A DNA stretch of 64,000 nt, taken from an uncultured Pelagibacteraceae bacterium. GTDB lineage: Bacteria > Pseudomonadota > Alphaproteobacteria > Pelagibacterales > Pelagibacteraceae. The stretch is taken from contig CACHUN010000003.1 of the NCBI GenBank assembly GCA_902583075.1, forward strand, positions 208,202 to 272,201. The letters are read 5' to 3'. Position numbers and translations under genes: made by a program. Below are positions 18,915 through 37,294 of the stretch, piece by piece. Each line of letters begins with the position of its first letter. The first letter of the stretch is position 1. The notes below the pieces were generated by a model. The model made no database searches. It saw nothing but the letters and a program-made list of their open reading frames with translations, and was not told the origin of the DNA.

Positions 18915-19931
18915 CTAATTTATTTTTAATTTTTCAAATTTTTTTGACTTAACTGATTTTTGTGCAGCTTCTGCTAACATAATAGACTTTCTTCCATCTT
19001 CAAAAACAGCTCTAGGTTTTATATTTTTTTTGCAAAATTTTGCAAGGTCAGATAGTTGCAACCTAAAAGCTTCTGCATATCTTTCTATAAAAAAATGAAG
19101 GAGTGGGGATTTATTATTTGTTGAACTTTTTAAAAAAAGATTAGCTTCAGTATCTCTTTTATTATCTGATATCATCATTCCTTTTGTTCCAAAAAGCTCA
19201 ACTCTTTGGTCATAACCAAAACTACAATGTCTTGAATTAGTTATAATGCATTGGACTCCTTTCTTCGACTTAAGCACTGTTGTTGCTAGCTCATAGTCTT
19301 TTAATTTATCAAATCTTTGGTCTGATATGTTACTTCCAGTAGCAAATACTGATATAAATTCATCTGAATTCAAGTAGTATCTTGCTAAATCAAAATCATG
19401 TATCATCATATCTTTAAAAATACCTCCAGAACTTTTTAAATAAGATAATGAAGGAGGAGCAGGGTCCCGACTAGTTATAATAATTTTTTCTAGTTTACCA
19501 ATTTTATTTTTTAACAGATTCTTTTTAAGTAAATTATGTCCAGGATCATATCTTCTATTAAATCCTATTTGCACTTTAGGATTAAGTTTTTTAATTTTCT
19601 TTAGAGATGAATTAATTTTTTTTAAATTTAAATCTAGTGGTTTTTCACAAAAGACTACTTTTTTATATTTTGCACCCTTTTCAATAAATTTTAAATGCGT
19701 AGAAGTAGAGGAGGCTATAAAAATACATCTAATTTCTTTATCTTTAAAAGCAATATCTGGATTATTTACTGAAATAGCATTAAATTTTTTTGAAATTTTG
19801 GTTGATAGATTTTTATTTAAATCAAAAACATATTTTAATTCAAATTCACTGTTTTTTCTTAAATTTTTAGCATGCATCTGGCCAATTCTACCAAGGCCAA
19901 ACAGAGCGGTTTTTATTTTATTTTTACCCAT
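18915..19931 (-). CDS. iolG: Gfo/Idh/MocA oxidoreductase, inositol 2-dehydrogenase-like
   Basis: NAD(P)-dependent dehydrogenase of about 338 aa. It has the Rossmann motif LFGLGRIGQMHA, the catalytic EKP (VVFCEKPLDLN), GFNRRYDPGH, and the substrate-binding GGIFKDMMIHDFDLARYY with the Asp-His pair of inositol dehydrogenases. It likely oxidises myo-inositol or a stereoisomer to the inosose that IolE dehydrates. I prefer the ATG at 19931 (MGKNKIKTALFGLG); the track's 19958 start lengthens the overlap with the upstream gene to 46 bp. Sequence type and the nearby iolE support the name, but scyllo-inositol or another polyol is possible. Confidence 0.75.
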   Translation of the reverse strand: MGKNKIKTALFGLGRIGQMHAKNLRKNSEFELKYVFDLNKNLSTKISKKFNAISVNNPDIAFKDKEIRCIFIASSTSTHLKFIEKGAKYKKVVFCEKPLDLNLKKINSSLKKIKKLNPKVQIGFNRRYDPGHNLLKKNLLKNKIGKLEKIIITSRDPAPPSLSYLKSSGGIFKDMMIHDFDLARYYLNSDEFISVFATGSNISDQRFDKLKDYELATTVLKSKKGVQCIITNSRHCSFGYDQRVELFGTKGMMISDNKRDTEANLFLKSSTNNKSPLLHFFIERYAEAFRLQLSDLAKFCKKNIKPRAVFEDGRKSIMLAEAAQKSVKSKKFEKLKIN

Positions 19932-21058
19932 CTTTTTTTTCTGTTCGAAACTTTGCATGCTTCAATAAATTTTGCAGTTTCCAGTCCTTCGTCCTCATTA
20001 GGGTAAAAATACCTTTTTTTTGCATTATTTTTCAAAGAATCTGCAAATTCACGATAAATATTTGCAAATGCATCTAAATAACCTTCAGGATGTCCAAATT
20101 TTAATCTAGAAAATTTTTTAGACAATTCAGCATTAAAAAAACCTCTTTCAATAAATTTAACAGCACCATTAGATGGATTAAATTTTAAATAGTTTGGATC
20201 GTTTTGAACCCATTCCAAACTTCCTTTCGTACCAAATATTCTTATTCGTAATCCGTAAACACCCCCTCTAGCCATCACACTTGTCCAAAAAATTCCTTTA
20301 GCTCCATTATTAAAATTAATCATTACTTGTGCATTGATATCCATTTTAACTTTATTTGAAACTTTTTTAATATCTGCAAAAATAGTTTCACCTTTTAAAC
20401 CTGATATATAAGTTGCCATATGATATGCATGGGATCCAATTTCATTCAGTACTGCTGACGCTCCAACAATATTTTTATCTATTTTCCATTTAAATTTTTT
20501 CTTTGCATTTTTTAGAGAGATATTTTCTCCATCTGACCAATCTTGAACATATTCAACATTTACATATTCAACTTTTCCAATTTTACCTTTTTCAACCAAT
20601 ACTTTTGCTTCTCTAACCATAGGATAAGCAGAATAATTATGTGTCAAAGCATACTTAATTTTTTTATTTGATTTTATTTTTTTAAATAATTTTTTAGCCT
20701 GTGTAAGATTTCCAGCAAATGGTTTATCAGAAATCACATGTATATTTTTATCAATAAATTTTTCTGCAATAATTTGGTGACTTGAAGGAGGTGTCATTAT
20801 TGCGACAACATTAATACCATCTTTTCTTGCTACTTCTCTTTCAGCCATTTCTCTAAAATTTGAATAGCATCTCGCTTTTAAAATACCTAGGCTTTGACCA
20901 AAGCTTTTAGATATTTTTGGATTTCTAGAAAAAACACCAGCAACTATCTCATATTGATTATCAAATCTTGATGAAATTCTATGAACATGACCAATCCAAG
21001 ATTTTGGACCACCTCCAACTACGCCAAGTTGGATTTTTTTTCCTTTAATTAATCTCAT
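19913..21058 (-). CDS. Gfo/Idh/MocA family oxidoreductase
   Basis: About 381 aa from ATG 21058 (MRLIKGKKIQLGVVGGGPKS). The track start at 21139 would run back into iolE and adds unrelated residues. The nucleotide-binding motif is GVVGGGPKSWIGHVHR and the catalytic region has DKP in place of EKP (HVISDKPFAGN). The C-terminal domain includes EIGSHAYHMATYISGL and the FGHPEGYLDAFANIYREFAD block seen in inositol/sugar dehydrogenase relatives. It is divergent from iolE by 31 bp and overlaps the downstream iolG-like gene by about 19 bp, so it likely acts in the same polyol route, for example as a second inosose or keto-inositol dehydrogenase. Confidence 0.82.
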   Translation of the reverse strand: MRLIKGKKIQLGVVGGGPKSWIGHVHRISSRFDNQYEIVAGVFSRNPKISKSFGQSLGILKARCYSNFREMAEREVARKDGINVVAIMTPPSSHQIIAEKFIDKNIHVISDKPFAGNLTQAKKLFKKIKSNKKIKYALTHNYSAYPMVREAKVLVEKGKIGKVEYVNVEYVQDWSDGENISLKNAKKKFKWKIDKNIVGASAVLNEIGSHAYHMATYISGLKGETIFADIKKVSNKVKMDINAQVMINFNNGAKGIFWTSVMARGGVYGLRIRIFGTKGSLEWVQNDPNYLKFNPSNGAVKFIERGFFNAELSKKFSRLKFGHPEGYLDAFANIYREFADSLKNNAKKRYFYPNEDEGLETAKFIEACKVSNRKKRWVKIK

Positions 21059-21089
21059 GATTAAATATATCTTAACAAATAAAAAATTT

Positions 21090-21992
21090 ATGTCAGTAAA
21101 ATTAGGTATAGCACCAATCGCTTGGAGTAATGATGACATGCCTGAATTAGGTGGAGATACTCCTCTTGAGCAATGTTTGTCAGAAGCAAGTCAGGCTGGA
21201 TATGTTGGCATTGAGTCAGGTGGTAAATTCCCAAAAACATCAAAAGAATTATTACCAAAGTTAGATAAGTATAACTTAAAACTATGTTCTGGTTGGTATA
21301 GTGGAAATCTTAGAAAAAATTCTGTTGAAAAAGAAAAAATTTTAATTCAAGAACAACTTAAATTATTTAAAGATTGCGAGGCTCCATGTATCGTTTTTGC
21401 TGAAGTTTTTGGTTCAATACAAGGCGATCCAACAGCAAAACTTTCAAGAAGGCCGAAGATGATGGACCAAGAATGGAAAGATTATTGCACAAAAATTTCT
21501 GAACTTGCAAAATATCTTGAAGATGAAGGTATGCCTTTAGCTTACCACCATCACATGGGCACAGTAATAGAAACAGAGGAAGAAACTATTAGATTACTAG
21601 AAAATACAAATGATAGTGTAAAATTAACTTTAGATACCGGCCACATGTTATTTGCTCAGGGAAATTCAATTAATATAATTAATAAATTTAAGGAAAGAGT
21701 AATCCATATTCACTGCAAAGATATTAGAGAAGAAGTATTAAAAAAAGCTCTTTCTGAGGATTTAAGTTTTAGAGATGCATTTTTAGAAGGTGCATTTACC
21801 GTACCTGGCGATGGGTGTATCGACTATAAACCTTTGTTTGATATTTTAAAAAAAAATAATTATCAGGGTTGGCTGGTTGTGGAGGCTGAACAAGATCCTA
21901 GAAAAGCTAATCCATTTGAATATGCTATTAAAGGTTACAAATATATTACAGATACTTTAAAAAAATCAAATTTAGAGATTAATAATCTATAA
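21090..21992 (+). CDS. iolE: inosose (2-keto-myo-inositol) dehydratase
   Basis: Xylose-isomerase-like TIM barrel that dehydrates 2-keto-myo-inositol to 3D-(3,5/4)-trihydroxycyclohexane-1,2-dione. The start SVKLGIAPIAWSNDDMPELG is the characteristic IolE N-terminus; YHHHMGTVIETEEE, LTLDTGHMLFA, VIHIHCKDIR and the PGDGCIDYKPLFDIL block hold the metal ligands. I use ATG 21090 (300 aa): the track's 21057 start is also ATG but overlaps the opposite gene's start codon and adds residues foreign to the family. The 3' end overlaps the convergent dehydrogenase by 6 bp. Confidence 0.92.
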   Translation: MSVKLGIAPIAWSNDDMPELGGDTPLEQCLSEASQAGYVGIESGGKFPKTSKELLPKLDKYNLKLCSGWYSGNLRKNSVEKEKILIQEQLKLFKDCEAPCIVFAEVFGSIQGDPTAKLSRRPKMMDQEWKDYCTKISELAKYLEDEGMPLAYHHHMGTVIETEEETIRLLENTNDSVKLTLDTGHMLFAQGNSINIINKFKERVIHIHCKDIREEVLKKALSEDLSFRDAFLEGAFTVPGDGCIDYKPLFDILKKNNYQGWLVVEAEQDPRKANPFEYAIKGYKYITDTLKKSNLEINNL

Positions 21993-22943
21993 TTTTACTT
22001 TTTTACTATATTCAAGTTTACCATCAAAAAAATCAAAAATATTTTGAATAGTTTCTTTTGCCATTCTTGTCATACATTCTTCAGTGAATGCAGCAGCATG
22101 AGGACTAAGGAAAACTTTATCATTTTTTAATAGAGGATTATCAGCTTCTGGAGGTTCTACCTCAAATACATCAATTCCTGCTCCAAAAATCAAATTTTCA
22201 TTCAAAGCCCTATCTAAATCTTTTTCATTTATAATACCGCCTCTTGCAGCATTTATGATGATGCAGTTTTTTTTCATCGTTTTAAGAAGCTCGTAATTTA
22301 TAATATTTTTAGTTTGATCAGTTAAGGGTATATGGAGTGAGATAGCATCCATATCTTTAATAGCCTCTGCTAAATCTTCAACTTTTTTACCACCCATTTT
22401 GTTTATTGTTTCTGAATCTATAAATGGATCGTAAACAAAAACATTCATTTCAAATCCTAAACATCTTTTAATCAATGCTTTTCCTATTCTTCCAAATCCA
22501 GCAATAAGAATGTTTTTATCCCAAATCTCAATAGTTTTTGGTAATTTATTTCGTTCAGTAAATTTTCCACTTTTGACTGAATGGTCATACATACTCTTTC
22601 TTTTTGAGATACTTAAAAGCATGAAAATAACATGTTCTGCAACTGCCACAGCATTTGCTGTTGCAGTTATTGCTACATCGATATTTCCTTTTTTACAGCT
22701 ATTTAAATCAATATTATCGTAACCAACTCCATGTCTTGAAATTATTTTAAGGTTTTTTGCATTCTCAATTGCCTCAGCAGGTAATATCGAAGTTCTTAAA
22801 GAAACTGCGTCTGCATCTACAATTCTTTGTTTCACGTTTTCAACACTTAAATCTTCAACAACTTCGTAACTATAGTCACTATTACTTTTTAATAATTCCA
22901 TACCTTTTTCATGAATAGGTTGAACAATGAGAATTTTTTTCAT
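21987..22943 (-). CDS. D-isomer-specific 2-hydroxyacid dehydrogenase
   Basis: A 318 aa NAD-dependent oxidoreductase of the phosphoglycerate dehydrogenase/hydroxypyruvate reductase type. Rossmann motif ILIAGFGRIGKAL; catalytic Arg in NAARGGIINEKDL, Glu in the VFEVEPPEADNPLL segment and His in LSPHAAAFT. It lacks the C-terminal ACT domain of serine-pathway SerA, so a catabolic substrate is more likely. It is the last gene of a four-gene minus-strand unit (PanE-like, two oxygenases, this gene). Confidence 0.85.
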   Translation of the reverse strand: MKKILIVQPIHEKGMELLKSNSDYSYEVVEDLSVENVKQRIVDADAVSLRTSILPAEAIENAKNLKIISRHGVGYDNIDLNSCKKGNIDVAITATANAVAVAEHVIFMLLSISKRKSMYDHSVKSGKFTERNKLPKTIEIWDKNILIAGFGRIGKALIKRCLGFEMNVFVYDPFIDSETINKMGGKKVEDLAEAIKDMDAISLHIPLTDQTKNIINYELLKTMKKNCIIINAARGGIINEKDLDRALNENLIFGAGIDVFEVEPPEADNPLLKNDKVFLSPHAAAFTEECMTRMAKETIQNIFDFFDGKLEYSKKVKL

Positions 22944-22959
22944 AATTTTAAAAAAGAAA

Positions 22960-23949
22960 TTATACTAGTCTAGCAAGATCTCTTTTACTATTTCTAAATG
23001 TTGGAAGGGGATATTTAAATGCATACTTTCTAGGAATACATTTATTCTTTGCTTTTTCCCACAAAGCAATCCATTGCTTATAGTTGTGGATGGTAATATT
23101 TTTTTTATTTTTACTTCTTACATAAAAATTGGGCAAAGGTTTCCTGCCAGATGGGGTTCCGGCTCTATTATATCTTAAATCAGCGCTAATTCTAAAATCA
23201 TTAGATTTATTAGGCAATGAACAGTGAATGGAGTGTTTGTGCAAAATAATAATATCACCAACATTAGCCTCTAGAAAAACTGGCTTGTAATTATCTAGTA
23301 GTTTACTATCTTTTATTTCGACTTGACCTCTATATCCCGATATATGATTCAATAATCCCAATTTATTAATTTCTTTTACTGTAATCATACATCCATTTTT
23401 TTTAGTAGTTTTAGTAAATGGAATCCAAACAGTTATCATATCAGTTAATCTTTGTCCCAAAGATGATAATACTGCTGCATCCTGATGCCATGGTGTTCTA
23501 CCTGAGAGACCATCGTGAACAGAATGTTTAGGTAATTTATTTTCAGGTTGTTTAATTCTTGTATTTTGAACTGGATTTGAAAGTATTTCTGGCCCTAATA
23601 ATTTTTCAACTACATCCAAGATTTTTTTGTGATTTATTAAATTCCATAAAGATTGAGATGCAAAATAATCACTATCTTTCTTCACGTGATCTCTTGGAAG
23701 TCTAGTATTAAAATATTGATCGAGATCATAAATTTTTAATTTTGAAACATATGTGTATTTTTTTCTAAAGTTATATTTAAAAACTTTTTCTTTCATATGT
23801 TCAGGTGCAAATTTATGAACTAAATTGTCCATTACATATTCCATATCATTTAAAATTGGTTTTAAATCTTTATCGAAGTTAAGAACATTTCTTACTCTTA
23901 AGAAGCCATCTCTATCTAAAATACTTTTTAATTTAGTCTTAATCTGCAT
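22960..23949 (-). CDS. phytanoyl-CoA dioxygenase (PhyH)-family Fe(II)/2OG oxygenase
   Basis: A 329 aa non-haem iron hydroxylase. The HxD iron ligands are in TPWHQDAAVL, the distal His is in HSIHCSLPNKS, and the 2-oxoglutarate-binding Arg is probably in RISADLRYNRAG. The family hydroxylates small molecules, including acyl-CoAs, ectoine and phosphonates; the substrate cannot be read from the motifs. It is two bases downstream of a second 2OG oxygenase, suggesting successive hydroxylations in one pathway. Confidence 0.82.
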   Translation of the reverse strand: MQIKTKLKSILDRDGFLRVRNVLNFDKDLKPILNDMEYVMDNLVHKFAPEHMKEKVFKYNFRKKYTYVSKLKIYDLDQYFNTRLPRDHVKKDSDYFASQSLWNLINHKKILDVVEKLLGPEILSNPVQNTRIKQPENKLPKHSVHDGLSGRTPWHQDAAVLSSLGQRLTDMITVWIPFTKTTKKNGCMITVKEINKLGLLNHISGYRGQVEIKDSKLLDNYKPVFLEANVGDIIILHKHSIHCSLPNKSNDFRISADLRYNRAGTPSGRKPLPNFYVRSKNKKNITIHNYKQWIALWEKAKNKCIPRKYAFKYPLPTFRNSKRDLARLV

Positions 23950-23951
23950 AA

Positions 23952-24815
23952 TTACTGATATTTTAGCAAATAATTTGAATCATGAAAAGATGTAAGCATT
24001 CTTTTTTTCGTCGCAACAATATGTGGATGATATTCAAAATTTTTATATTTCCATATCACTGGTTTGTTGAGAGCATAACTTCCATAAATAAAAAATCTTT
24101 TTGGACAGTTTTTTTCCTTAAATCTATTTACTCCGTGATAAGAATTAGGAGTAGATTTAAAGAAAATTACACTACCCTGTTTTGGAGTGAATTCCTTTAA
24201 TTTATCAAGTTCATTAATCTTAGGAAACCTTCTAAAGCTTTTTCCAAGGTTTTTGTTTACTTTTTTCTTATATAAAGTGAGAGATCCTCCATTTTTTTTT
24301 GGTATATCGGTTAAATAGATCAAAAAATTATATAACCTATTCACATCATCTCTATGTGGTCTCAATCTATATCCTCCTTTAGATACTGAGAAATCAATGT
24401 CTAAATTTAAATTTGGATTTTTATAATTTTTACCTATTAGTTTTTTTAGTTCTTTGGAATTTATTTTTCTTTTAACTGTATATTTTTTTTTATCAAATTT
24501 TTTTGGTTTAAATAAACTTTGCCATGTATTTGCCTTAAACTCTGTTTTAAATTTCTTATCAATTTTCTTATAAAATGATTGTGTATTGAAAGTAGCAAAA
24601 AGTTTTTTTGAGATTTTAGAACTTGAGATATATTTGTTGAAATTTTTTGATCCTTTGTTTATCCTACTTCTGCCACCCATAATCATATCATCAAAACTTT
24701 TTGAATTAGTTATTTCTTTAATTAAAGAATTACAGATTTTTTTACTGATTATTTGCTCTCCAATAATGACTGGGAAGTTTGATTTAATTTTCTTTAGTTT
24801 ACTAATTTTCAGCAT
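23952..24815 (-). CDS. 2OG-Fe(II) oxygenase, prolyl-4-hydroxylase-like fold
   Basis: A 287 aa basic protein. The iron-binding HxD is in LRPHRDDVNRLYNFLIYL, followed by the GGSLTLYKKK strand, GSVIFFKSTPNSYHGVNRF (distal His) and KRFFIYGSYAL. This order is typical of the 2OG-Fe(II)_Oxy/P4Hc superfamily. Small molecules, not proteins, are the likely substrates given its metabolic neighbours. The start codon abuts the stop of the PanE-like gene, and the stop is two bases from the PhyH gene. Confidence 0.8.
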   Translation of the reverse strand: MLKISKLKKIKSNFPVIIGEQIISKKICNSLIKEITNSKSFDDMIMGGRSRINKGSKNFNKYISSSKISKKLFATFNTQSFYKKIDKKFKTEFKANTWQSLFKPKKFDKKKYTVKRKINSKELKKLIGKNYKNPNLNLDIDFSVSKGGYRLRPHRDDVNRLYNFLIYLTDIPKKNGGSLTLYKKKVNKNLGKSFRRFPKINELDKLKEFTPKQGSVIFFKSTPNSYHGVNRFKEKNCPKRFFIYGSYALNKPVIWKYKNFEYHPHIVATKKRMLTSFHDSNYLLKYQ

Positions 24816-25760
24816 TTAGCTGTACATGCCTTCTTTTACTTTAATCATTTTGTACATAAGGTCATTTAATGGTGTGGATATACCATGTTTTTTTCCTATT
24901 TTAGATACGGCGCCACTTATGAAATCAATTTCAGTTTTTCTTTTATAAAGCACATCAAAAGCCATTGAAGACTTATTTGTTTGTTTTGAGTCAACAATTT
25001 TATTAAACATAAATAAACATTCTTTTTCAGAAACATTAACACCATCTGCTAAAGCAACGTCTCTTGTTTCTAATATTATCTCTTTTCCTAAACTTCTAGA
25101 AACATCGTTGGCATTATTATTTATGTAAAGATCAGTATGATGTAGATCAAAAATAGCTGAAAGTGGTCCTATTGCGGTTAAAGCAAAAAGTTTCATCCAT
25201 TTTCTTTTTTTTACATCCTCAGCTGCAATCATTTCTAAATTATGAGCAGTAAAGGTGTCTGCAATTTCGGTTATTCTATCTGTTATCCCACCATCATATT
25301 CTCCAATCCAAGAGGGTAGAGCAGCATGATTCATAATATGACCAGGGCCTAAGATATTTGATGCTTGAGTTGTTGTTCCTCCAATTACTTTTTCATCACC
25401 AACAATACTTTTAATTATAGCTTCATGTCCAATTCCATTTTGAAAAGACATAAAAACTGTTTTATCGTTAATAATGTTTTTAATACTTTTTAAAGCAGGT
25501 TCTAGAGCTGTTGCTTTACACATGACTATCACAGCATCAACTTTTCCAATTGTGGAGGGATCTGATGTTGCTGGTACTTTTATAAATCTATCACCACCAT
25601 GACCATCCATTTTTAGACCATTTTTATTTATTTCATCAACATGCTCTTTCCAAACGTCAATGAGCGTTACATTTAGACCTTTTTCCGCTAGTAGGCCTCC
25701 GAATAGACAACCCATTGCCCCTGCACCAAGAACTGCAACTTTTAAGTCTTTATTATTCAT
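24816..25760 (-). CDS. 2-dehydropantoate 2-reductase-family protein (PanE/ApbA)
   Basis: A 314 aa NADPH-dependent reductase of ketopantoate-reductase fold. N-terminal VAVLGAGAMGCLFGGLLAEKG, FQNGIGHE (catalytic/ligand Asn region), the conserved Lys in KRKWMKLFALTAIGP, and a C-terminal SSMAFDVLYKRKTEIDFISG block. I take ATG 25760; the track's 25772 start is TTG. PanE paralogues also reduce other branched 2-keto acids. It heads a minus-strand unit with two oxygenases and faces a divergent DUF1907-PanB-like pair, so a catabolic role is as plausible as pantothenate synthesis. Confidence 0.82.
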   Translation of the reverse strand: MNNKDLKVAVLGAGAMGCLFGGLLAEKGLNVTLIDVWKEHVDEINKNGLKMDGHGGDRFIKVPATSDPSTIGKVDAVIVMCKATALEPALKSIKNIINDKTVFMSFQNGIGHEAIIKSIVGDEKVIGGTTTQASNILGPGHIMNHAALPSWIGEYDGGITDRITEIADTFTAHNLEMIAAEDVKKRKWMKLFALTAIGPLSAIFDLHHTDLYINNNANDVSRSLGKEIILETRDVALADGVNVSEKECLFMFNKIVDSKQTNKSSMAFDVLYKRKTEIDFISGAVSKIGKKHGISTPLNDLMYKMIKVKEGMYS

Positions 25761-25821
25761 TTTTAAAATCAAAATATATTTATGTAAAAAAATTATGCAA
25801 TATATTATGTAACTAATTTAT

Positions 25822-26790
25822 ATGGAATTAAAAATAGAAAAAGGAATTTTCAAAAAATTTAAGTTAGAAGAAATATCAAACGCACTAGAAAAAGGTCTGT
25901 CAAAGAATTATGACATTGTAAAAGCAGAAGTAATTGATTGTCCAAATTTAAGAAAATGGGATTGTCCATCTGAAGGTATGAGTGGCAACCAAAGGATAAT
26001 CGATGTTGGAGGAGAGCCTTACATGCATGATCCTAAATATCTTGGAACTGAATTTGATTATTCAGAAATTTCAAAAATGATTGGATCAGAAAGATCCTAC
26101 GCGCTTGGTGCAGGATCTGGAGCAATGTCTTGCCTCGATGGACACTGTGGAGAATTGGTTATAAATGAAAACTTTATCACAAAAGAAAATAAATCTTTAA
26201 TTGCTAGAGTAGGAAAAGATAAAGAATGCATAGTAGAGGACTATACCACAAGCAAACATGGTGGGCTAGGTAATGTTTATTATTCCGATGGAGTTAAAGG
26301 AAAAGTTATATATTTAAAAATAAAAAAAAGAACTGGAAAACAAGGTTCATTACCTCAATCAATAAGAACAGCACTTTCAGAAAATCTTAAAATTGGGAAT
26401 AAAGATCATATTGCTCTTGCTGGTGTATTTAGAGTTTTGAATGGAAAAATAAGATCACACATACAACCAGATTATAAGGATATAAAACATGAATATTATA
26501 ATCCAAGTTTGATGAAATGCACAAAAGATTTTCTACAATTTTATGAGCCTGTTGGACCAAAATTACAATGCTATACTGTTTTATGGACTGGTGATCCAAC
26601 GGGGGGAGAATTAAATTTAAGGGAGTCTGGTGAGCATACTCACTTTCACTCATATGAGCACAAGAATGATGCTGGACATTACCATTTTGACGTATCTCCA
26701 GATGAAATTGAATATGAAGGATACTTTAATATTGCACAAGAAGTACATAGAGTGAATAATATCTATAAAGAATTAAAAAATATAATATGA
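25822..26790 (+). CDS. C11orf54/DUF1907-family zinc enzyme
   Basis: A 322 aa protein resembling animal C11orf54 (PTD012), an ester-hydrolase-like zinc protein of about 315 aa. The zinc motif HxHx9H is present as HFHSYEHKNDAGH (H274, H276, H286). Other family blocks are NLRKWDCPSEGMSGNQRIID, YALGAGSGAMSCLDGHCGE, HGGLGNVYYSDG and the VLWTGDPTGGELNLRESGEH run. My recollection, not verifiable here, is that the human protein was recently tied to 3-dehydro-L-gulonate decarboxylation in the uronate-to-xylulose route; that would suit a sugar-acid cluster. It overlaps the PanB-like gene by 4 bp and is divergent from the PanE-like gene by 61 bp. Confidence 0.85.
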   Translation: MELKIEKGIFKKFKLEEISNALEKGLSKNYDIVKAEVIDCPNLRKWDCPSEGMSGNQRIIDVGGEPYMHDPKYLGTEFDYSEISKMIGSERSYALGAGSGAMSCLDGHCGELVINENFITKENKSLIARVGKDKECIVEDYTTSKHGGLGNVYYSDGVKGKVIYLKIKKRTGKQGSLPQSIRTALSENLKIGNKDHIALAGVFRVLNGKIRSHIQPDYKDIKHEYYNPSLMKCTKDFLQFYEPVGPKLQCYTVLWTGDPTGGELNLRESGEHTHFHSYEHKNDAGHYHFDVSPDEIEYEGYFNIAQEVHRVNNIYKELKNII

Positions 26791-27602
26791 AAAAAATTTA
26801 TACTTGGGCTGCTCAACCTGCTAACAGAAATCTTACAGTTGATGATCTTAAAAAAGCAAAAGGAAAAAAAAAATTTACTCAAGTCACAGCTAATACAATA
26901 GATGAAGCTGAGGCTGCAGAGAAGGCTGGATTTGACATGATAATCTGCAATGCTTTTAATGTAAAACAGGTGAAAGAGGGATCAAAGAATCTTTTTTTAA
27001 CTGCTGCGCTAGTATTAAATAAGTTTGTCACTTCAGAAGATATAATGAGAGGAGCGTTTGAAGCCTTAGAAAATGGAGCTGATGCTGTCATGACACCTAG
27101 AAGTATGAAAATAGTAGAGATGTTGGCTAATGAAGATGTTCCAGTTATGGGACATCTTGGTTTAGTTCCGAGAAAATCTACATGGATTGGTGGTTTAAGA
27201 GCAGTAGGAAAAAATAGCGAAGAGGCACATGAGCTTTTTTTAAAATTCAAAAGATTAGAGAATGCGGGAGCTTTTTCTGCTGAATGTGAGGTTATCCCAG
27301 AAAATGTAATGGGAGAAATCTCTAAAAGAACAAATATAGTAACAGTTTCTTTAGGTTCAGGAAAAAAAGCAGATGTAATGTATTTGTTCATGGAAGATAT
27401 ATGTGGAGATACTTTAAATCCTCCAAGACATTCAAAAGCTTATGGAAATTTATTAAAATTAAAAAATGAAATAAAAATTGAGAGAGTTCGAGCTCTTAAG
27501 GCATTCAAAAAAGATTCTATGGCAGGAAAATTTCCAGGAAAAAAACAATCTTCAAATTTAAATAAAAAAGAGTTCGAGTCTTTTCTTGATAAGCTTGATT
27601 AA
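26787..27602 (+). CDS. ketopantoate hydroxymethyltransferase-like (PanB family)
   Basis: A 271 aa TIM-barrel protein of the PanB/PEP-mutase superfamily. It shows KKFTQVTANTIDEAEAAEKA at the N-terminus, VPVMGHLGLVPRKST (compare PanB GHVGLTPQ), AGAFSAECEVIPENVMG (catalytic Glu block) and VSLGSGKKADVMYLFMEDICGD. Canonical PanB transfers a hydroxymethyl group to 2-oxoisovalerate. Several motifs depart from typical PanB (for example SLGSG for GIGAG), so an aldol or retro-aldol reaction on another 2-keto acid is possible. It pairs with DUF1907 and a divergent PanE-like gene. Confidence 0.78.
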   Translation: MKKIYTWAAQPANRNLTVDDLKKAKGKKKFTQVTANTIDEAEAAEKAGFDMIICNAFNVKQVKEGSKNLFLTAALVLNKFVTSEDIMRGAFEALENGADAVMTPRSMKIVEMLANEDVPVMGHLGLVPRKSTWIGGLRAVGKNSEEAHELFLKFKRLENAGAFSAECEVIPENVMGEISKRTNIVTVSLGSGKKADVMYLFMEDICGDTLNPPRHSKAYGNLLKLKNEIKIERVRALKAFKKDSMAGKFPGKKQSSNLNKKEFESFLDKLD

Positions 27603-28390
27603 TAAGTTTCAGATTCTTTTTTGCTTATTGAGCCTTTCATTTTTTCAACAATTGCCTTAGCTCCAGCACTCATTGCTCTTTGATCTGCTCCAATAGTTAC
27701 AAAGTTAAATCCTTTATCGATCATTTTTTGTGCATACTCAGGTGTTCCATTATGAATTCCTGCAAAAATATTATTTTTTTTGGCATGCTCTAGTATTCTT
27801 AATATTTCTGAATAAGCTTTTGTATCCTCTGCTCTGTCAAACCCAGGTTTTTCTCCAATTGCTAAACTTAAATCAGCTGGACCAATATATATTCCATCTA
27901 CACCATCTGTAGACATGATCTCATCTAATTTATCTAAAGACTCTTTGGTCTCAATCATAGCTAACTTTAAAATTTCATCATTTGCATGATCGGCATAATC
28001 AGCTCCACCATAAATCAATCCTCTAACGGGACCAAAACTTCTATATCCTCTTGGAGGGTACATGCAGGCTTGTACAAATTTCTCTGCTTCTTCTTTATTG
28101 CTTACCATAGGACATATAATTCCATAACAACCAGCGTCTAAAATTTTCATGATTTGGCCTGACTCATTCCAATTTACTCTTGCAAGAGGAGTTACATCAG
28201 TTGATGAAATAGTTTGAAGCATCGGAAGCGCATTTGTGTAATCTACAAGTCCATGCTGCATATCTACTGTCAGAGAATCCCACCCTTGATGCGCCATAAC
28301 TTCTGCTGATACAGTGCTTGGAATTTGTAACCAACCATTTACTACAGGCTTGCCTTCAGCCATCATTTGTTTGACTTTATTTTTTCTCAT
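27599..28390 (-). CDS. HpcH/HpaI-family class II aldolase
   Basis: A 263 aa metal-dependent pyruvate aldolase. Motifs: LTVDMQHGLVDYTNALPML (base and metal region), PLARVNWNESGQIMKILDAG, GIICPMVSNKEEAEKFV, YPPRGYRSFGPVRG and IYIGPADLSLAIGE. Family members split 4-hydroxy-2-keto acids (2-keto-3-deoxy sugar acids, 5-keto-4-deoxyglucarate, HKHD) into pyruvate and an aldehyde. It overlaps the aldehyde dehydrogenase stop by one base, so the pair could cleave a keto-deoxy acid and oxidise the aldehyde product. Confidence 0.88.
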   Translation of the reverse strand: MRKNKVKQMMAEGKPVVNGWLQIPSTVSAEVMAHQGWDSLTVDMQHGLVDYTNALPMLQTISSTDVTPLARVNWNESGQIMKILDAGCYGIICPMVSNKEEAEKFVQACMYPPRGYRSFGPVRGLIYGGADYADHANDEILKLAMIETKESLDKLDEIMSTDGVDGIYIGPADLSLAIGEKPGFDRAEDTKAYSEILRILEHAKKNNIFAGIHNGTPEYAQKMIDKGFNFVTIGADQRAMSAGAKAIVEKMKGSISKKESETY

Positions 28391-29832
28391 TAATAATTGA
28401 GACCGAAGTGAGTGTACTTAACGTTCAAATAATCTTTTATAGCCATAGAGCCACCTTCTCTTCCATAGCCTGTCTGTTTTATTCCTCCAAAAGGCACTTC
28501 AGCAAAAGCAATTGTTGGATGGTTTACTGCACATGTTCCAGTTTCCATTTTTTCTGAGACTTTGTGCGCTTTTTCTAAAGAATTAGTGTAGATATAGCTC
28601 GCTAAACCAAGGTCATTATCATTTGCTCTTTCCACAACTTCATCTGTGTCTTTAAAAGTAAGCAATGGAACTAGAGGTCCGAATGGCTCTTCTTTAGCAA
28701 TTGTAAAATTATCTTTAACATTGTCAAAAATTGTTGGTTCGTAAAAATAACCTTTATTAAAACCAGCTGGTCTTTTTCCACCACATAAAACTGTTGCACC
28801 TTCACTTTTAGTTTTTTCTACTAATGCCTCTATTTCATTTAATCTTTTTTCTGTTGTTAAAGGTCCTAGAATTGTATCTTCATCCATTCCGTTACCAACT
28901 TTAAGCTTAGTGACTTTTTCAACTAATGTTTTAGCAAATTCATCTTTTTTACTTTCATGAATATAAAATCTTGCAGGTGATATACAAACTTGACCATTAT
29001 TTCTAAATTTAGCAGTGATTGCCATGTCGGTTACTTTATTAATATCTACGTCGTCAAAAACAATGAAAGGTGAGTGGCCACTTAATTCCATTGTAACTCT
29101 TTGGACTTTTTCAGCAGCTTGTTTTAAAATTAGTTTTCCAACTCTTGTTGAACCTGTAATAGAAACTTTTTTCACTATATCAGATGATATTAATTGAGAT
29201 GAGATTTTAGCTGGATCACCAGATAATAAATTTACTACTCCTGGAGGAACGCCCGCATCATTTATTATATTCATAAGTTCCATTACACTACCTGGAGTAA
29301 TCACATCAGGCTTACAAATTACTGAACATCCTGCAGCTAAAGCAGTGGAAATTTTTCTTGAGGACAAAACTATTGGAAAGTTCCATGGTATTAATCCAGC
29401 AACAACTCCAACTGGCTCATATTTTACATACATTCTTGTATGTTCAAATCTACTTTCAACTATCTGACCATAAATTCTTTTTGTTTCTTCTGAGTTCCAT
29501 TCAAAAATATCTGCAGCTCCTCCAACTTCACCTTTTGCTTCTGATAGTGGCTTTCCAACTTCTAATGTTAACCACTTAGCCAAAACATCAGTTCTCTCTC
29601 TCATAAGGTCGGCAATTTTTCTTATAATTTTTGATCTTTGCCAAGGTGGAGTATTTCTCCAAACTTCTAGACCTTTTTCTGCAGACTTAAGTGCTTTGTT
29701 TACATCTTCTTCACCTGCTTTAGATGCCTTGCCTAAAACTTCTTCTGTTGCAGGATTTAAAACATCATAAGTTTCATTATTTTGTGATGCTTGCCATTTG
29801 CCATCAATGAATTGTCCAAATTTGCTATACAT
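28390..29832 (-). CDS. NAD(P)-dependent aldehyde dehydrogenase
   Basis: A 480 aa ALDH with VAGLIPWNFPIVLSSRKIST, VSITGSTRVGKLILK, the general base in MELSGHSPFIVFDD and the nucleophile Cys in RNNGQVCISPARFY. Resembles succinate-semialdehyde, glycolaldehyde or 2-oxoglutarate-semialdehyde dehydrogenases; it lacks the CoA-dependent methylmalonate-semialdehyde (IolA) look. It is upstream of the HpcH aldolase and divergent from iolD by 55 bp, which suggests a semialdehyde or uronate aldehyde from the same pathway as substrate. Confidence 0.87.
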   Translation of the reverse strand: MYSKFGQFIDGKWQASQNNETYDVLNPATEEVLGKASKAGEEDVNKALKSAEKGLEVWRNTPPWQRSKIIRKIADLMRERTDVLAKWLTLEVGKPLSEAKGEVGGAADIFEWNSEETKRIYGQIVESRFEHTRMYVKYEPVGVVAGLIPWNFPIVLSSRKISTALAAGCSVICKPDVITPGSVMELMNIINDAGVPPGVVNLLSGDPAKISSQLISSDIVKKVSITGSTRVGKLILKQAAEKVQRVTMELSGHSPFIVFDDVDINKVTDMAITAKFRNNGQVCISPARFYIHESKKDEFAKTLVEKVTKLKVGNGMDEDTILGPLTTEKRLNEIEALVEKTKSEGATVLCGGKRPAGFNKGYFYEPTIFDNVKDNFTIAKEEPFGPLVPLLTFKDTDEVVERANDNDLGLASYIYTNSLEKAHKVSEKMETGTCAVNHPTIAFAEVPFGGIKQTGYGREGGSMAIKDYLNVKYTHFGLNY

Positions 29833-29887
29833 AATTTTTATTTTGTGGTTTATTAGTTGAATATTTGAGGAGAATATAACTAGAAAA

Positions 29888-31732
29888 ATGAAAAAAATAA
29901 AGCTTACTTGCGCTCATGCCTTAGTTAAACACTTAATTGCTCAGAAAATCTATATAGATGCTAAGGTTGAACCTTTGTTTCCAGGAGCTTTTGGTATTTT
30001 TGGACATGGAAATGTAGCATGTATTGGACAAGCTTTAGAGGAAAATAAAGACAAACTTCCAACATTTAGAGGTCATCACGAACAAAATATGGCTTTAACA
30101 GGTGTTGCTTATGCAAGAGCTAAAAGAAGAAAGCAAATTTTTATTGCAACAAGTTCGGTTGGACCAGGATCTACTAATCTTGTTACAGCATCAGCAGTAG
30201 CTATGAGTAATAGATTGCCAATTTTATTTTTACCTGGAGACACTTACGCAAATAGAATGCCAGATCCAGTTTTGCAACAGGTTGAACACTTTTCAAATCC
30301 AGGAATGACAGCTAACGACTCATTTAAACCAGTTACAAAATATTTTGATAGAATTACAAGACCAGAGCAAATATTACAGTCACTTCCTCAAGCAATTCAA
30401 ACCATGTTAGATCCAGCAGAGTGCGGTCCCGCATGTTTATCTTTATGCCAAGATGTACAAGGAGAAACATTTGAATATCCGGAAGAATTTTTTAAAGAAA
30501 GAATTCATAATATTAGAAGACCTAGACCTGACGATTTTCAAATAAAACAAGCAGTGGAAAAAATTAAAAATTCTAAAAACCCAATTATAATTTCAGGTGG
30601 AGGAGTATTTTATTCTGATGCCATGGATGAATTAGGAAATTTTGCAGTTAAACATAATATACCAGTTACTCAAACAGTTATGGGATACTCAACAATGAAA
30701 AAGGATCACTCTCATTTTGTAGGACCAATAGGGGGACTTGGAGGAAAGGCTGCAAATAATTTAGCTAAAGAGACTGATTTAGCAATTTGTATTGGTACAA
30801 AATTAGCTGACTTTACAACTGGATCATGGGCAAATTTTGAAAATCCAAATTTTAATCTAGTTTCAATCAATATTGCTAGACATGATGCCAATAAACATTT
30901 AGCAGAAGCAGTTATTGGAGATGCAAAAGTATCATTAATAGAATTATCAAATGCATTAGGAGATTGGAGATCATCTGATAGTTGGCATAAAAAATCACAA
31001 GATGAGCTTAATTCTTGGAATGAATATATAGATAAAGCGAGTGGTCCAACTAATCAAAAATTACCAAGTTATGCTCATACTGTTGGAGCAATTTATAGGA
31101 ATTCAGATCCAACTGATATAGCTGTTACAGCAGCTGGAGGTTTAGTCGGAGAAGTTGTTCAAGTTTGGCGGCCAAAAGAGTTAAATACACATGAGACAGA
31201 ATGGGGATTTAGCTGCATGAGTTATGAAATTTCTGGTGCCCTTGGAATTAAAATGGCAAACCCAGATAAAGATGTCATTGCATTTGTAGGCGATGGTTCA
31301 TATTTATTAAACAATTCTGATATATATTCTTCAGTATTAACGAATAACAAATTAATAATTATCCTGTGTGATAATGGAGGTCATGCTGTTATAAATAGAC
31401 TTCAATTGTTCAAGGGTGGAAAAGAATTTAATTGTTTATTTAATTCATCAAATGTTCAAAATTTAAAAGAAATTAATTTTGTTCAACATGCAGCGAGTAT
31501 GGGGGCAAAATCAGAACATGTTTCTAGTATTTCAGAATTAGAAGAGGCATTTAAAAGAGCAAAACAATCAGATGTAACTTATGTTATATCAATTAAAACA
31601 CATAGTTATGAATGGCTTGAGGGATCTGCTTATTGGGAAAGTCCTACGCTTGAAATACCAACATCAAAAGAAAATGAAGAAGCATTAAAACTCCACAAAG
31701 AAGGAAAATCAAAACAAAGACAAGGTGTTTAA
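29888..31732 (+). CDS. iolD: 3D-(3,5/4)-trihydroxycyclohexane-1,2-dione acylhydrolase
   Basis: ThDP-dependent ring-opening enzyme of inositol catabolism, 614 aa, forming 5-deoxyglucuronate. The N-terminal VEPLFPGAFGIFGHGNVACI is typical of IolD. FRGHHEQNMALTGVAYARA carries the ThDP-activating Glu. The ThDP/Mg site is in VIAFVGDGSYLLNNSDIYSS, followed by DNGGHAVINRLQLFKGG. With iolE and the iolG-like gene this gives the first three steps of inositol breakdown, but no iolB, iolC or iolJ is seen in the window. It leads a plus-strand run through a sugar ABC importer. Confidence 0.93.
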   Translation: MKKIKLTCAHALVKHLIAQKIYIDAKVEPLFPGAFGIFGHGNVACIGQALEENKDKLPTFRGHHEQNMALTGVAYARAKRRKQIFIATSSVGPGSTNLVTASAVAMSNRLPILFLPGDTYANRMPDPVLQQVEHFSNPGMTANDSFKPVTKYFDRITRPEQILQSLPQAIQTMLDPAECGPACLSLCQDVQGETFEYPEEFFKERIHNIRRPRPDDFQIKQAVEKIKNSKNPIIISGGGVFYSDAMDELGNFAVKHNIPVTQTVMGYSTMKKDHSHFVGPIGGLGGKAANNLAKETDLAICIGTKLADFTTGSWANFENPNFNLVSINIARHDANKHLAEAVIGDAKVSLIELSNALGDWRSSDSWHKKSQDELNSWNEYIDKASGPTNQKLPSYAHTVGAIYRNSDPTDIAVTAAGGLVGEVVQVWRPKELNTHETEWGFSCMSYEISGALGIKMANPDKDVIAFVGDGSYLLNNSDIYSSVLTNNKLIIILCDNGGHAVINRLQLFKGGKEFNCLFNSSNVQNLKEINFVQHAASMGAKSEHVSSISELEEAFKRAKQSDVTYVISIKTHSYEWLEGSAYWESPTLEIPTSKENEEALKLHKEGKSKQRQGV

Positions 31733-31741
31733 AAACTTTTT

Positions 31742-32899
31742 ATGAATAAGGTTTTTAAAATTGGTTTAATAGGTTGTGGACATATCGCTGAAACATATTT
31801 TAGAGCTGAAAAATATTTTAATAATATTAAAATAATTAAATGTGCAGATATTAATATGAAAGCTGCAAAACGCTGTGCATTAAACTATGGAATAAAATTT
31901 TTAACTGTAAATGAACTCCTAAAAGATACAGAGGTTGAAATTATTCTAAACCTTACAATTCCAAAAGCACATTATTCAATATCTAAAAAGGCTTTAACAA
32001 ATGGAAAACATGTATACTCTGAAAAGCCATTAGCAATAAATTTTAAAGATGGAAAAGATTTAATAAAATTTTCAAAGAAAAAAAAATTATATTTAGGAAA
32101 TGCTCCTGATACATTTTTGGGTGGTGGAATACAAAAGTCAAAAGAATTAGTTGAAGAAAATATAATTGGAAAAATAAAATTAGGCAATGCAGTTTTTGCT
32201 TTTCCTGGAATTGAGTCTTATCATCCTAACCCTGAACCTTGGTTTGCAAAAAATGAGGGAGGTCCTGTTATTGATATGGGACCATATTATATTACCGCTT
32301 TGGTAAATCTGTTAGGACCTGCAAAAAAAGTAAATAGCAACATCATTCAAGGTCAAAAATTTAGAACTATTGGTATAGGACCAAAAAAAGGCAAAAAATT
32401 TAGGGTAGAATGTCCAACTACTTATTTATCTACAATTACTTTTAAAAATAACTCAGTTATAAGATTAACATTATCATTTGATGTAATAGCCCATCAAAGA
32501 AATCACATTGAATTATATGGAGAAAAGGGCTCGATGATTGTTCCTGACCCAAATATGTTCGGTGGATCAGTGTTAACCTGTAATAAATTAGGGAAAAATT
32601 GGAAAGAATATAAGACTACAAAAATGTCTTTGGGACGTATTAATATTAGAACACAAAGTTCTAGAGCTAACGAAGCACCAACTAATGCAAATTATCGAGG
32701 AGCTGGATTATCTGAAATGGCATATTCAATTGAGAATAAAAAAAAACATTTATGTAATGGTGAGATATCTTTACATGTACTAGAAATTATAACTTCTATT
32801 ATGAAAGCAGCTAAATCTGGAAAATCTTTGTCAATTAATACTAACTGTACAAAACCAAAAAAGTTTTTAGAAATAGATGCAAAGAAATTACTTAAATAA
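31742..32899 (+). CDS. Gfo/Idh/MocA family oxidoreductase
   Basis: A 385 aa dehydrogenase. It begins FKIGLIGCGHIAETYFRAEK (Rossmann), has the catalytic EKP in HVYSEKPLAIN, and substrate-domain blocks AKNEGGPVIDMGPYYITALV and IELYGEKGSMIVPDPNMFGG. Resembles sugar and polyol dehydrogenases of the YrbE/LgdM kind. It lies 9 bp after iolD and 23 bp inside the next dehydrogenase, so oxidation of an inositol stereoisomer or related sugar is a reasonable guess. Confidence 0.83.
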   Translation: MNKVFKIGLIGCGHIAETYFRAEKYFNNIKIIKCADINMKAAKRCALNYGIKFLTVNELLKDTEVEIILNLTIPKAHYSISKKALTNGKHVYSEKPLAINFKDGKDLIKFSKKKKLYLGNAPDTFLGGGIQKSKELVEENIIGKIKLGNAVFAFPGIESYHPNPEPWFAKNEGGPVIDMGPYYITALVNLLGPAKKVNSNIIQGQKFRTIGIGPKKGKKFRVECPTTYLSTITFKNNSVIRLTLSFDVIAHQRNHIELYGEKGSMIVPDPNMFGGSVLTCNKLGKNWKEYKTTKMSLGRINIRTQSSRANEAPTNANYRGAGLSEMAYSIENKKKHLCNGEISLHVLEIITSIMKAAKSGKSLSINTNCTKPKKFLEIDAKKLLK

Positions 32900-33929
32900 A
32901 TTGACTGTGAAAAAACATATAGTTATTTCTGATCCATTTCCAAGAAGATTAGATTTAATCTTTTCAAAAAAAAAACTTAAGGAATTAAAATCAAAATACA
33001 AAATAATACCAGCTCCTAAGTTAAATAAAAAAAAATTTTATGAAAAAAATATTCATAAAGCTACTTTTATCATGGGTCAACCAGATCTGGATAAAAATCT
33101 TTTGTCAAAAGCTTCTAAGTTGAAATGTATTATAAATGTCGAAAGTAATTTTATTGATAATATTGACTATGATTATTGCTTTAAAAAAAAAATTGATGTC
33201 ATTGCTACATCACCTGTTTTTTCAAAGCCAGTTGCTGAAATAGCCTTAGGCATGACTTTGTCTATATTAAGAAATATACATAATGCTCATTTTGATTTTG
33301 TAAAAGGTAAAGAAAAATATGGTTTAAAGAGTAATTTGAATGCTTCCCTTTTGGCAAACAAAAAAATTGGTTTACTTGGTTTTGGAGATTTAGCTAAGGC
33401 GCTTTACCCATTGCTGCTACCATTTACAAAACATATAAATGTTTATGACCCCTGGGTCCCAAATAAAATAATTAAAAAAGCTGGTTTTAAGTCTATTAAT
33501 TTAAATAAAATGTTTAGTGATTGTGAGATTATTTATGTTCTAGCAACTATCACAACTAAAAACAAAAATTTAATTAACAAAAAATTATTAAATAAAATGA
33601 AGCCTAAATCAGTTTTTGTTTTAATGAGTAGAGCAGAAATCGTTAATTTTGTGGACCTAAAAAAAAGAGTCAAAAAGGGAGATATATACGTTGCAACAGA
33701 TGTATTTCCTGAAGAACCTGTAAAAAAAAGTGATCCAATTAGAAAGCTTAAAAATATATTATTTTCAGCTCATAGAGCTGGAGCTTTAGAACAGGCTTTT
33801 TTTGATATGGGTGATATTGTTCTAAAAGATATGAACTTAATTTTAAAAAAAATGCCTCCAAAATTCTGCAAAAGAGCTCAAAGAAAAACGGTAAATCTGT
33901 TAGCCTCAAAACCTGTTGCAATTAACTGA
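32877..33929 (+). CDS. D-isomer-specific 2-hydroxyacid dehydrogenase
   Basis: A Rossmann oxidoreductase of up to 350 aa. NAD motif KIGLLGFGDLAKALYPLL, catalytic-region VLMSRAEIVNF (Arg), TDVFPEEPVKKSDPI (Glu) and LFSAHRAGALEQ (His). The ATG at 32877 overlaps the previous gene by 23 bp; GTG at 32907 (VKKHIVISDPFPRR) is an equally reasonable start. It may reduce or oxidise a 2-keto acid of the neighbouring sugar-acid routes; closer substrate assignment is not possible. Confidence 0.8.
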   Translation: MQRNYLNKLTVKKHIVISDPFPRRLDLIFSKKKLKELKSKYKIIPAPKLNKKKFYEKNIHKATFIMGQPDLDKNLLSKASKLKCIINVESNFIDNIDYDYCFKKKIDVIATSPVFSKPVAEIALGMTLSILRNIHNAHFDFVKGKEKYGLKSNLNASLLANKKIGLLGFGDLAKALYPLLLPFTKHINVYDPWVPNKIIKKAGFKSINLNKMFSDCEIIYVLATITTKNKNLINKKLLNKMKPKSVFVLMSRAEIVNFVDLKKRVKKGDIYVATDVFPEEPVKKSDPIRKLKNILFSAHRAGALEQAFFDMGDIVLKDMNLILKKMPPKFCKRAQRKTVNLLASKPVAIN

Positions 33930-36829: not shown

Positions 36830-37294
36830 ATGCTAATTAAAATTAATCCAATTTTAAGCCCTGAGCTCCTATATCAGTTAAGGGCAATGGGTCATGGTGA
36901 TAAACTTGTTTTAACTGATGCTAATTTTCCTGCATATTCTCACTCTTCAAATAATAGAGTAATTAGACTAGACGGAGTAGATATTTATGAAGCTACAAAG
37001 GCTATTCTATCTGTTTTTCCATTAGATAGTTTCATTGATTCAGCTGCAAATAGAATGCAGGTTGATAACAAACCTGATGAACTAACTGATTGTCATAAAG
37101 ATTTTATTAAAGCTGTAAAAGAAACTTCTGGAGAAAATTGGAAGATAGGTTCAATTGAAAGACAAGAATTTTATAAAGAGGCAAAAAAATCTCAATTAAT
37201 AGTATCAACCTCTGAAATGAGACCATATGGGTGTTTTATATTAACAAAGGGAGTAATTAAACCAGATGGTAGTGTTTGGGTTCTTGATAAATAA
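36830..37294 (+). CDS. RbsD/FucU-family sugar mutarotase
   Basis: A 154 aa member of the RbsD/FucU family, which interconverts sugar anomers or ring forms before phosphorylation. LLYQLRAMGHGDKLVLTDAN holds the catalytic His and Asp; the DANFPA run is closer to FucU than to RbsD. The C-terminal region has IVSTSEMRPYGCFILTKGV. One-base overlap (TAATG) with the kinase gene. It follows the importer terminator, so it needs read-through or its own promoter. Confidence 0.88.
   Translation: MLIKINPILSPELLYQLRAMGHGDKLVLTDANFPAYSHSSNNRVIRLDGVDIYEATKAILSVFPLDSFIDSAANRMQVDNKPDELTDCHKDFIKAVKETSGENWKIGSIERQEFYKEAKKSQLIVSTSEMRPYGCFILTKGVIKPDGSVWVLDK

Follow-up and report, generated by a model that had tools for sequence, protein, structure and literature searches.

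Among the described systems closest to the locus considered here are the mocDEF genes, which take part in rhizopine catabolism (PMC10107442), and the human zinc protein C11orf54 (PTD012), reported in 2025 to be a 3-dehydro-L-gulonate decarboxylase (EC 4.1.1.34); a commentary on that finding also reports dehydrogenase–DUF1907 fusions in rotifers (PMC12435205). The bacterial locus that we compare with them lies in a 64,000-nucleotide stretch of DNA from a member of the Pelagibacteraceae (SAR11), hereafter the window, in which genes for a DUF1907 protein, a PanE-like dehydrogenase, two Fe(II)/2-oxoglutarate (2OG) oxygenases and a PanB-like protein stand together. An earlier note on this DNA was aware of no described pathway that has the combination; literature on DUF1907, SAR11 inositol metabolism, iolB-less pathways and PanB-like proteins or rhizopine indeed yielded no description of it, in a search that had most subscription papers outside its scope.

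These five genes (22960–27602) are tentatively regarded as an accessory oxidative cassette within an inositol-catabolic locus of SAR11. The boundaries follow from six SAR11 genomes that have IolD and lack DUF1907 (loci L108–L113): here, the genes for an aldehyde dehydrogenase, an HpcH aldolase and a 2-hydroxyacid dehydrogenase lie in a row with no gene separating the latter two, and in the window the five cassette genes stand exactly at this junction. The earlier note had drawn a six-gene module that took in the 2-hydroxyacid dehydrogenase. The five genes do form a unit, but the dehydrogenase, adjacent as it is, belongs to the backbone of the locus because cassette-free relatives keep it beside the HpcH aldolase. 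All six open reading frames and their family assignments were borne out, the frames being present at the coordinates previously given and the Pfam matches agreeing, and neighbouring genes are spaced by 0–16 bp or overlap by 4 bp. With ratios of nonsynonymous to synonymous divergence (dN/dS) of ∼0.03–0.22 in six pairwise comparisons within SAR11, the six genes are functional and under purifying selection. For the PanE-like gene, an ATG start at 25760 (314 amino acids) is more likely than the TTG at 25772 since most relatives start there; the divergent intergenic region, previously put at about 60 bp, is then 61 bp long. A sigma-70 scan of this region performed no better than on shuffled sequences, and a terminator scan likewise gave no excess. 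An unrooted IolD tree separates the cassette-free loci from the others by one branch (support 97/95), so that a single gain or a single loss of the cassette suffices.

Presence was counted over 80 SAR11 loci, with each count limited to those whose contigs reach the position of the gene. The PanE-like gene adjoins DUF1907 as a divergent pair in 78 of 78 loci and PhyH is present in 72 of 72, while the second oxygenase is present in 67 and absent from 6 of 73, and the PanB-like gene present in 59 and absent from 14 of 73. The core of the cassette thus comprises PhyH, the PanE-like dehydrogenase and DUF1907, with the PanB-like protein and the second oxygenase as accessories. Among backbone genes, the HpcH aldolase is retained in 70 of 71 loci and IolD in 59 of 60. 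Given the invariance of the pair and of PhyH and the low dN/dS values, the arrangement is not due to chance; conservation of the neighbourhood among relatives, which the earlier note had set as a test, holds across SAR11. Of 61 relatives, 4 carry DUF1907, each of them together with IolD. When the search was widened beyond SAR11 to 386 genomes of the class and 398 of the phylum, only the window's own genome (G000) matched, and no copy was found in plasmids or phages.

Some loci depart from the common layout. In L050–L062 the PanB-like gene is lost and DUF1907 has diverged (synonymous divergence, dS, of 0.99 for DUF1907 versus 0.12 for the PanE-like gene in L054), which suggests that recombination replaced the DUF1907–PanB end. 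Divergent SAR11 lineages carry a 138-amino-acid protein between DUF1907 and the PanB-like gene (L085:11507–11923, L086:9133–9549), the L085 copy being without a Pfam match. In L024 the cassette genes appear inverted and oddly joined in the assembly, probably a single-cell amplification chimera.

The best-grounded step of the mechanism proposed below is the pairing of dehydrogenase and DUF1907. The DUF1907 protein matches PF08925 over the entire profile (positions 1–285 of 285; 197 bits against a gathering score of 25) and aligns over its full length with human PTD012/C11orf54 (PDB 1xcr, E = 3.6e-37). The histidine motif EHTHF...GHYH aligns with that of 1xcr and is invariant in all SAR11 copies listed; we take these histidines to bind zinc, the choice of individual ligands being presumed. 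By analogy with the human relative, decarboxylase activity is proposed for the SAR11 protein. Its PanE-like partner scores 236 bits against TIGR00745 (cut-off 141.35), falls below every equivalog cut-off shown and keeps the catalytic Lys (W-x-K) and Glu (TEID). Four and eight residues after this Lys, at positions which we take to line the substrate pocket, all five aligned PDB sequences (including Enterococcus 3wfi/2ew2) have Asn, whereas all 86 SAR11 copies examined have Leu and Gly, within a 12-residue motif that is identical in 85 of them and shows one conservative change elsewhere in the last. A second PanE/ApbA family member in the same genome retains both Asn. Because the two Asn are lost, the substrate of the PanE-like enzyme probably differs from that of the solved family members.

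Both oxygenases keep the HxD...H facial triad and the 2OG-binding Arg. In PhyH, the motif WHQD...H...R occurs in every complete SAR11 copy checked; in the second oxygenase, H154-x-D156...H227...R240 is invariant in the alignments. No relative of the latter was found in NCBIfam or the PDB, and its AlphaFold2 model (mean predicted local distance difference test score, pLDDT, 35.8) is too poor for a fold search.

The accessory PanB-like protein is not a canonical PanB. It scores 99.3 bits against the TIGR00222 equivalog, below the cut-off of 207.55, and belongs to a clade of 34 alphaproteobacterial sequences that is split from 13 true PanB sequences with a support of 100/100. The motifs had been called atypical in the earlier note, which also proposed family trees as a check; the window protein indeed lacks equivalents of D45, D84, E114 and K112, the metal ligands as established for E. 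coli PanB, all of which are present in the 13 true PanB. Throughout the clade K112 and E114 are lost, and D84 in all but one member, while every copy retains the Glu that corresponds to E181. The AlphaFold2 model of the window protein (mean pLDDT 44.6) is again too poor for a fold search. Within two genes of the PanB-like gene, 22 of 30 loci encode oxygenase parts, i.e. PhyH, fatty acid (FA) hydroxylase/MocD, FA desaturase, MocE ferredoxin, ferredoxin reductase or Rieske oxygenase. Such parts account for 28 of 118 near genes versus 10 of 157 farther away (Fisher p = 6.6e-5, odds ratio 4.6). This p-value is optimistic, since some of the loci tested also supplied the seed sequences and since loci that are related do not count as independent. 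The PanB-like gene has PhyH in its neighbourhood in three different SAR11 contexts; on rhizobial plasmids its neighbours are a MocD-like hydroxylase, a Rieske ferredoxin and a ferredoxin reductase; and in Phaeobacter it lies near a member of the sterol-desaturase family and a protein whose annotation reads inositol oxygenase family. In L177 (genome G175) its neighbour is MocE and the surrounding iol cluster is canonical, with IolG, an IolC–aldolase fusion and IolD over cut-off. Like gene content, synteny, motifs and clade membership, this association between the clade and oxygenases is directly observed. The L177 cluster also includes two TIM-barrel-like proteins, and in L160 (genome G219) a pair of adjacent PanB-like genes faces a pair of PhyH genes, likewise adjacent, with further PanB-like copies in the same genome.

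The best explanation that we can offer, held with slightly less than even confidence, is a four-step oxidative route of hydroxylation, oxidation, decarboxylation and one-carbon handling, for which we infer every SAR11 catalytic step, the step order and the substrate. PhyH, sometimes together with the second oxygenase, would hydroxylate or demethylate a substrate that is a sugar acid or derives from a cyclitol. The PanE-like NAD(P) enzyme would then turn the resulting β-hydroxy acid into a β-keto acid, which the DUF1907 zinc enzyme would decarboxylate as its human relative does 3-dehydro-L-gulonate. When present, the PanB-like protein may deal with the one-carbon unit or branch left by the oxygenase, e.g. 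through retro-aldol release or formaldehyde capture, and the shortened product would pass to the neighbouring inositol or sugar-acid route. Candidate substrates are L-gulonate-like acids, methylated inositols and other branched sugar acids; in all, the route probably serves to shorten a cyclitol or sugar acid that is oxidised or methylated. The earlier note had instead pictured a 2-keto acid being hydroxylated, reduced and cleaved. Since the human DUF1907 member is reported to be a β-keto acid decarboxylase, hydroxylation, oxidation and decarboxylation are the likelier order; of that interpretation, the exclusion of pantothenate synthesis, the conservation and the inositol context stand, while the 2-hydroxyacid dehydrogenase is assigned to the backbone and the order of reactions is probably a different one.

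Several points weigh against the four-step route. Characterised PanE-family enzymes reduce 2-keto acids, and a β-hydroxy acid as substrate of the PanE-like protein is deduced from its pairing with DUF1907, whose own substrate is not fixed by the activity of human C11orf54. The PanB-like protein is not essential, being absent from 14 SAR11 loci, and 8 of its 30 loci have no recognised oxygenase neighbour. Synteny conserved inside one bacterial family could, moreover, be inherited without one shared pathway. A wider version strikes us as rather improbable: that in an undescribed SAR11 route methylated cyclitols or branched sugar acids lose a carbon through the joint action of a 2OG oxygenase, a C11orf54-type decarboxylase and a repurposed PanE, and that a repurposed PanB clade serves non-haem iron oxygenases throughout the Alphaproteobacteria as a general partner for one-carbon units.

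Features of the cassette and of the surrounding inositol locus, in window coordinates
Feature	Role	Position	Strand	Match or remark
PhyH-family Fe(II)/2OG oxygenase	Cassette core	22960..23949	-	PF05721 3.6e-17
Second Fe(II)/2OG oxygenase, 2OG-FeII_Oxy_3 type	Cassette, accessory	23952..24815	-	PF13640 1.5e-10
PanE/ApbA-like dehydrogenase, proposed β-hydroxy acid dehydrogenase	Cassette core	24816..25760	-	ApbA/ApbA_C 1e-39/3e-27
Divergent intergenic region	Presumed promoter	25761..25821	.	61 bp, well conserved among close relatives
DUF1907/C11orf54-family zinc enzyme, proposed β-keto acid decarboxylase	Cassette core	25822..26790	+	PF08925 5.5e-58
PanB-like protein of non-PanB clade	Cassette, accessory	26787..27602	+	PF02548 (Pantoate_transf) 2e-35
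IolG-like inositol dehydrogenase	Backbone	18915..19958	-	TIGR04380 347 bits, just below cut-off 355
IolE, inosose dehydratase	Backbone	21087..21992	+	TIGR04379 408 bits, cut-off 290
D-2-hydroxyacid dehydrogenase	Backbone	21987..22943	-	2-Hacid_dh_C 4e-52; adjoins HpcH aldolase in L108-L113
HpcH/HpaI aldolase	Backbone	27599..28390	-	PF03328 9e-32; retained in cassette-free loci
Aldehyde dehydrogenase	Backbone	28390..29832	-	PF00171 1e-166; retained in cassette-free loci
IolD, trihydroxycyclohexane-1,2-dione (THcHDO) hydrolase	Backbone	29888..31732	+	TIGR04377 783 bits, cut-off 715

The alternative that survives best, although we think it unlikely, is an L-gulonate or uronate branch, in which the PanE-like protein takes the place of L-gulonate 3-dehydrogenase without being homologous to it and L-xylulose is the product of DUF1907, while the oxygenases and the PanB-like protein are simply co-located and act on another, unrelated substrate. 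It matches the reported activity of human C11orf54 and the rotifer dehydrogenase–decarboxylase fusion (PMC12435205), and accords with the divergent intergenic region common to the PanE-like and DUF1907 genes and with the observation that the PanB-like protein and the second oxygenase can go while this pair stays. However, the fact that PhyH is never lost from loci whose contigs reach it argues that it belongs with the pair, and no uronate reductase or inositol oxygenase was recognised beside the cassette in the window.

A narrower version of the four-step route, and a somewhat less probable one again than the gulonate branch, would take the methyl group off a methylated inositol, either O-methyl (pinitol, rhizopine-like) or C-methyl (algal laminitol or mytilitol). 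The oxygenase would oxidise the methyl group and the PanE-like enzyme make the adjacent hydroxyl a ketone, with the carbon leaving as CO2 through DUF1907 or as formaldehyde through the PanB-like protein. The MocDEF proteins demethylate 3-O-methyl-scyllo-inosamine, and it is relatives of these proteins (MocE ferredoxin, MocD-like hydroxylase and ferredoxin reductase) that neighbour PanB-like orthologues; the host locus, too, is an inositol locus. Yet, O-demethylation alone needs neither DUF1907 nor a PanE-like enzyme, no protein for the uptake or binding of methyl-inositols was identified, and the substrate is a guess.

The locus is judged to be inositol-catabolic because IolE, an IolG-like protein and IolD are encoded together, followed by a sugar-type ABC transporter, in line with the inositol and sugar-acid context seen by the earlier note. 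Beyond it, at 36830–63163, lies a long run of sugar-acid genes, recognised partly by reading the sequences, with RbsD/FucU-like, ribokinase-like and PdxA-like proteins, enolase-superfamily dehydratases, altronate dehydratase-like and IlvD/Edd-like proteins, a FAH-family protein and tripartite and TRAP transporters. None of 61 relatives gave a match to IolB (PF04962), and none of 11 IolD-bearing SAR11 genomes one to IolC (TIGR04382) over cut-off, the genomes being partly incomplete; MmsA is over cut-off in 7 of these 11. As an inositol-cluster survey demanded three of iolB, C, D and E (PMC9430895), the SAR11 locus would fall outside it. The lower steps of a locus that lacks IolB and IolC need explaining. 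One quite improbable solution is that the PanE-like enzyme and DUF1907 replace IolB and IolC by acting on 5-deoxyglucuronate, the product of IolD, which carries a hydroxyl β to its carboxylate and hence is a β-hydroxy acid. Such a replacement is made unlikely by the cassette-free relatives, which have the same IolG, IolE and IolD without IolB and must process 5-deoxyglucuronate too. The aldehyde dehydrogenase, HpcH aldolase and 2-hydroxyacid dehydrogenase, found in both locus types, are better candidates: in SAR11 loci (window 18915–33929; L108–L113), 5-deoxyglucuronate may be oxidised at the aldehyde and at C2 and then possibly split into hydroxypyruvate and malonate semialdehyde. Cassette-free loci also encode, beside the 2-hydroxyacid dehydrogenase, a protein of ∼166 amino acids with an apparently hydrophobic N-terminal stretch (L108:5975–6475, L109:14395–14895, L111:6612–7109, L112:4820–5323), the L109 copy having no Pfam match.

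Finally, variant pantothenate synthesis, suggested by the family names only and already doubted in the earlier note, is rejected as extremely improbable on the clade, motif and score of the PanB-like protein; at another site, the genome encodes a true PanB that has all ligands (303 bits).

SAR11 bacteria, which rank among the most abundant in the ocean, have very small genomes. That such genomes conserve ∼4.6 kb for a putative route suggests that the compound concerned is of importance in surface seawater. The locus also lets the newly assigned C11orf54 family be tested in a concrete bacterial setting, and a whole alphaproteobacterial clade annotated as PanB is suggested to be misannotated and linked to iron oxygenases.

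Set against known systems, the locus shares IolG-like, IolE and IolD proteins with the canonical iol pathway (IolG, E, D, B, C, J/A), but has the aldehyde dehydrogenase, HpcH aldolase and 2-hydroxyacid dehydrogenase in place of IolB and IolC. The PanE-like protein shares fold family and catalytic Lys and Glu with PanE/ApbA enzymes such as 3wfi/2ew2 and differs in the replaced Asn; the PanB-like protein shares superfamily and the E181-equivalent Glu with PanB (TIGR00222), from which its clade is set apart by the lack of K112 and E114 and by a separate branch, and the window protein itself by a sub-cut-off score. With human C11orf54 there is a likeness in the full-length DUF1907, the EHTHF and GHYH histidines and a pairing with a dehydrogenase as in the rotifer fusions. 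The SAR11 partner, however, is of the PanE family rather than 3HCDH/CRYL1, and the SAR11 gene comes with 2OG oxygenases in an inositol locus. With rhizopine mocDEF, the common ground is the inositol-type context and, outside SAR11, the proximity of MocE-family ferredoxin, MocD-like hydroxylase and ferredoxin reductase to PanB-like orthologues. MocD, MocE and MocF beside a PanB-like gene are present in rhizobial plasmid loci and absent from the SAR11 locus, and neither DUF1907 nor PanE-like genes were seen in the moc-like loci inspected; where those loci have the moc oxygenase parts, SAR11 has PhyH and 2OG oxygenases instead.

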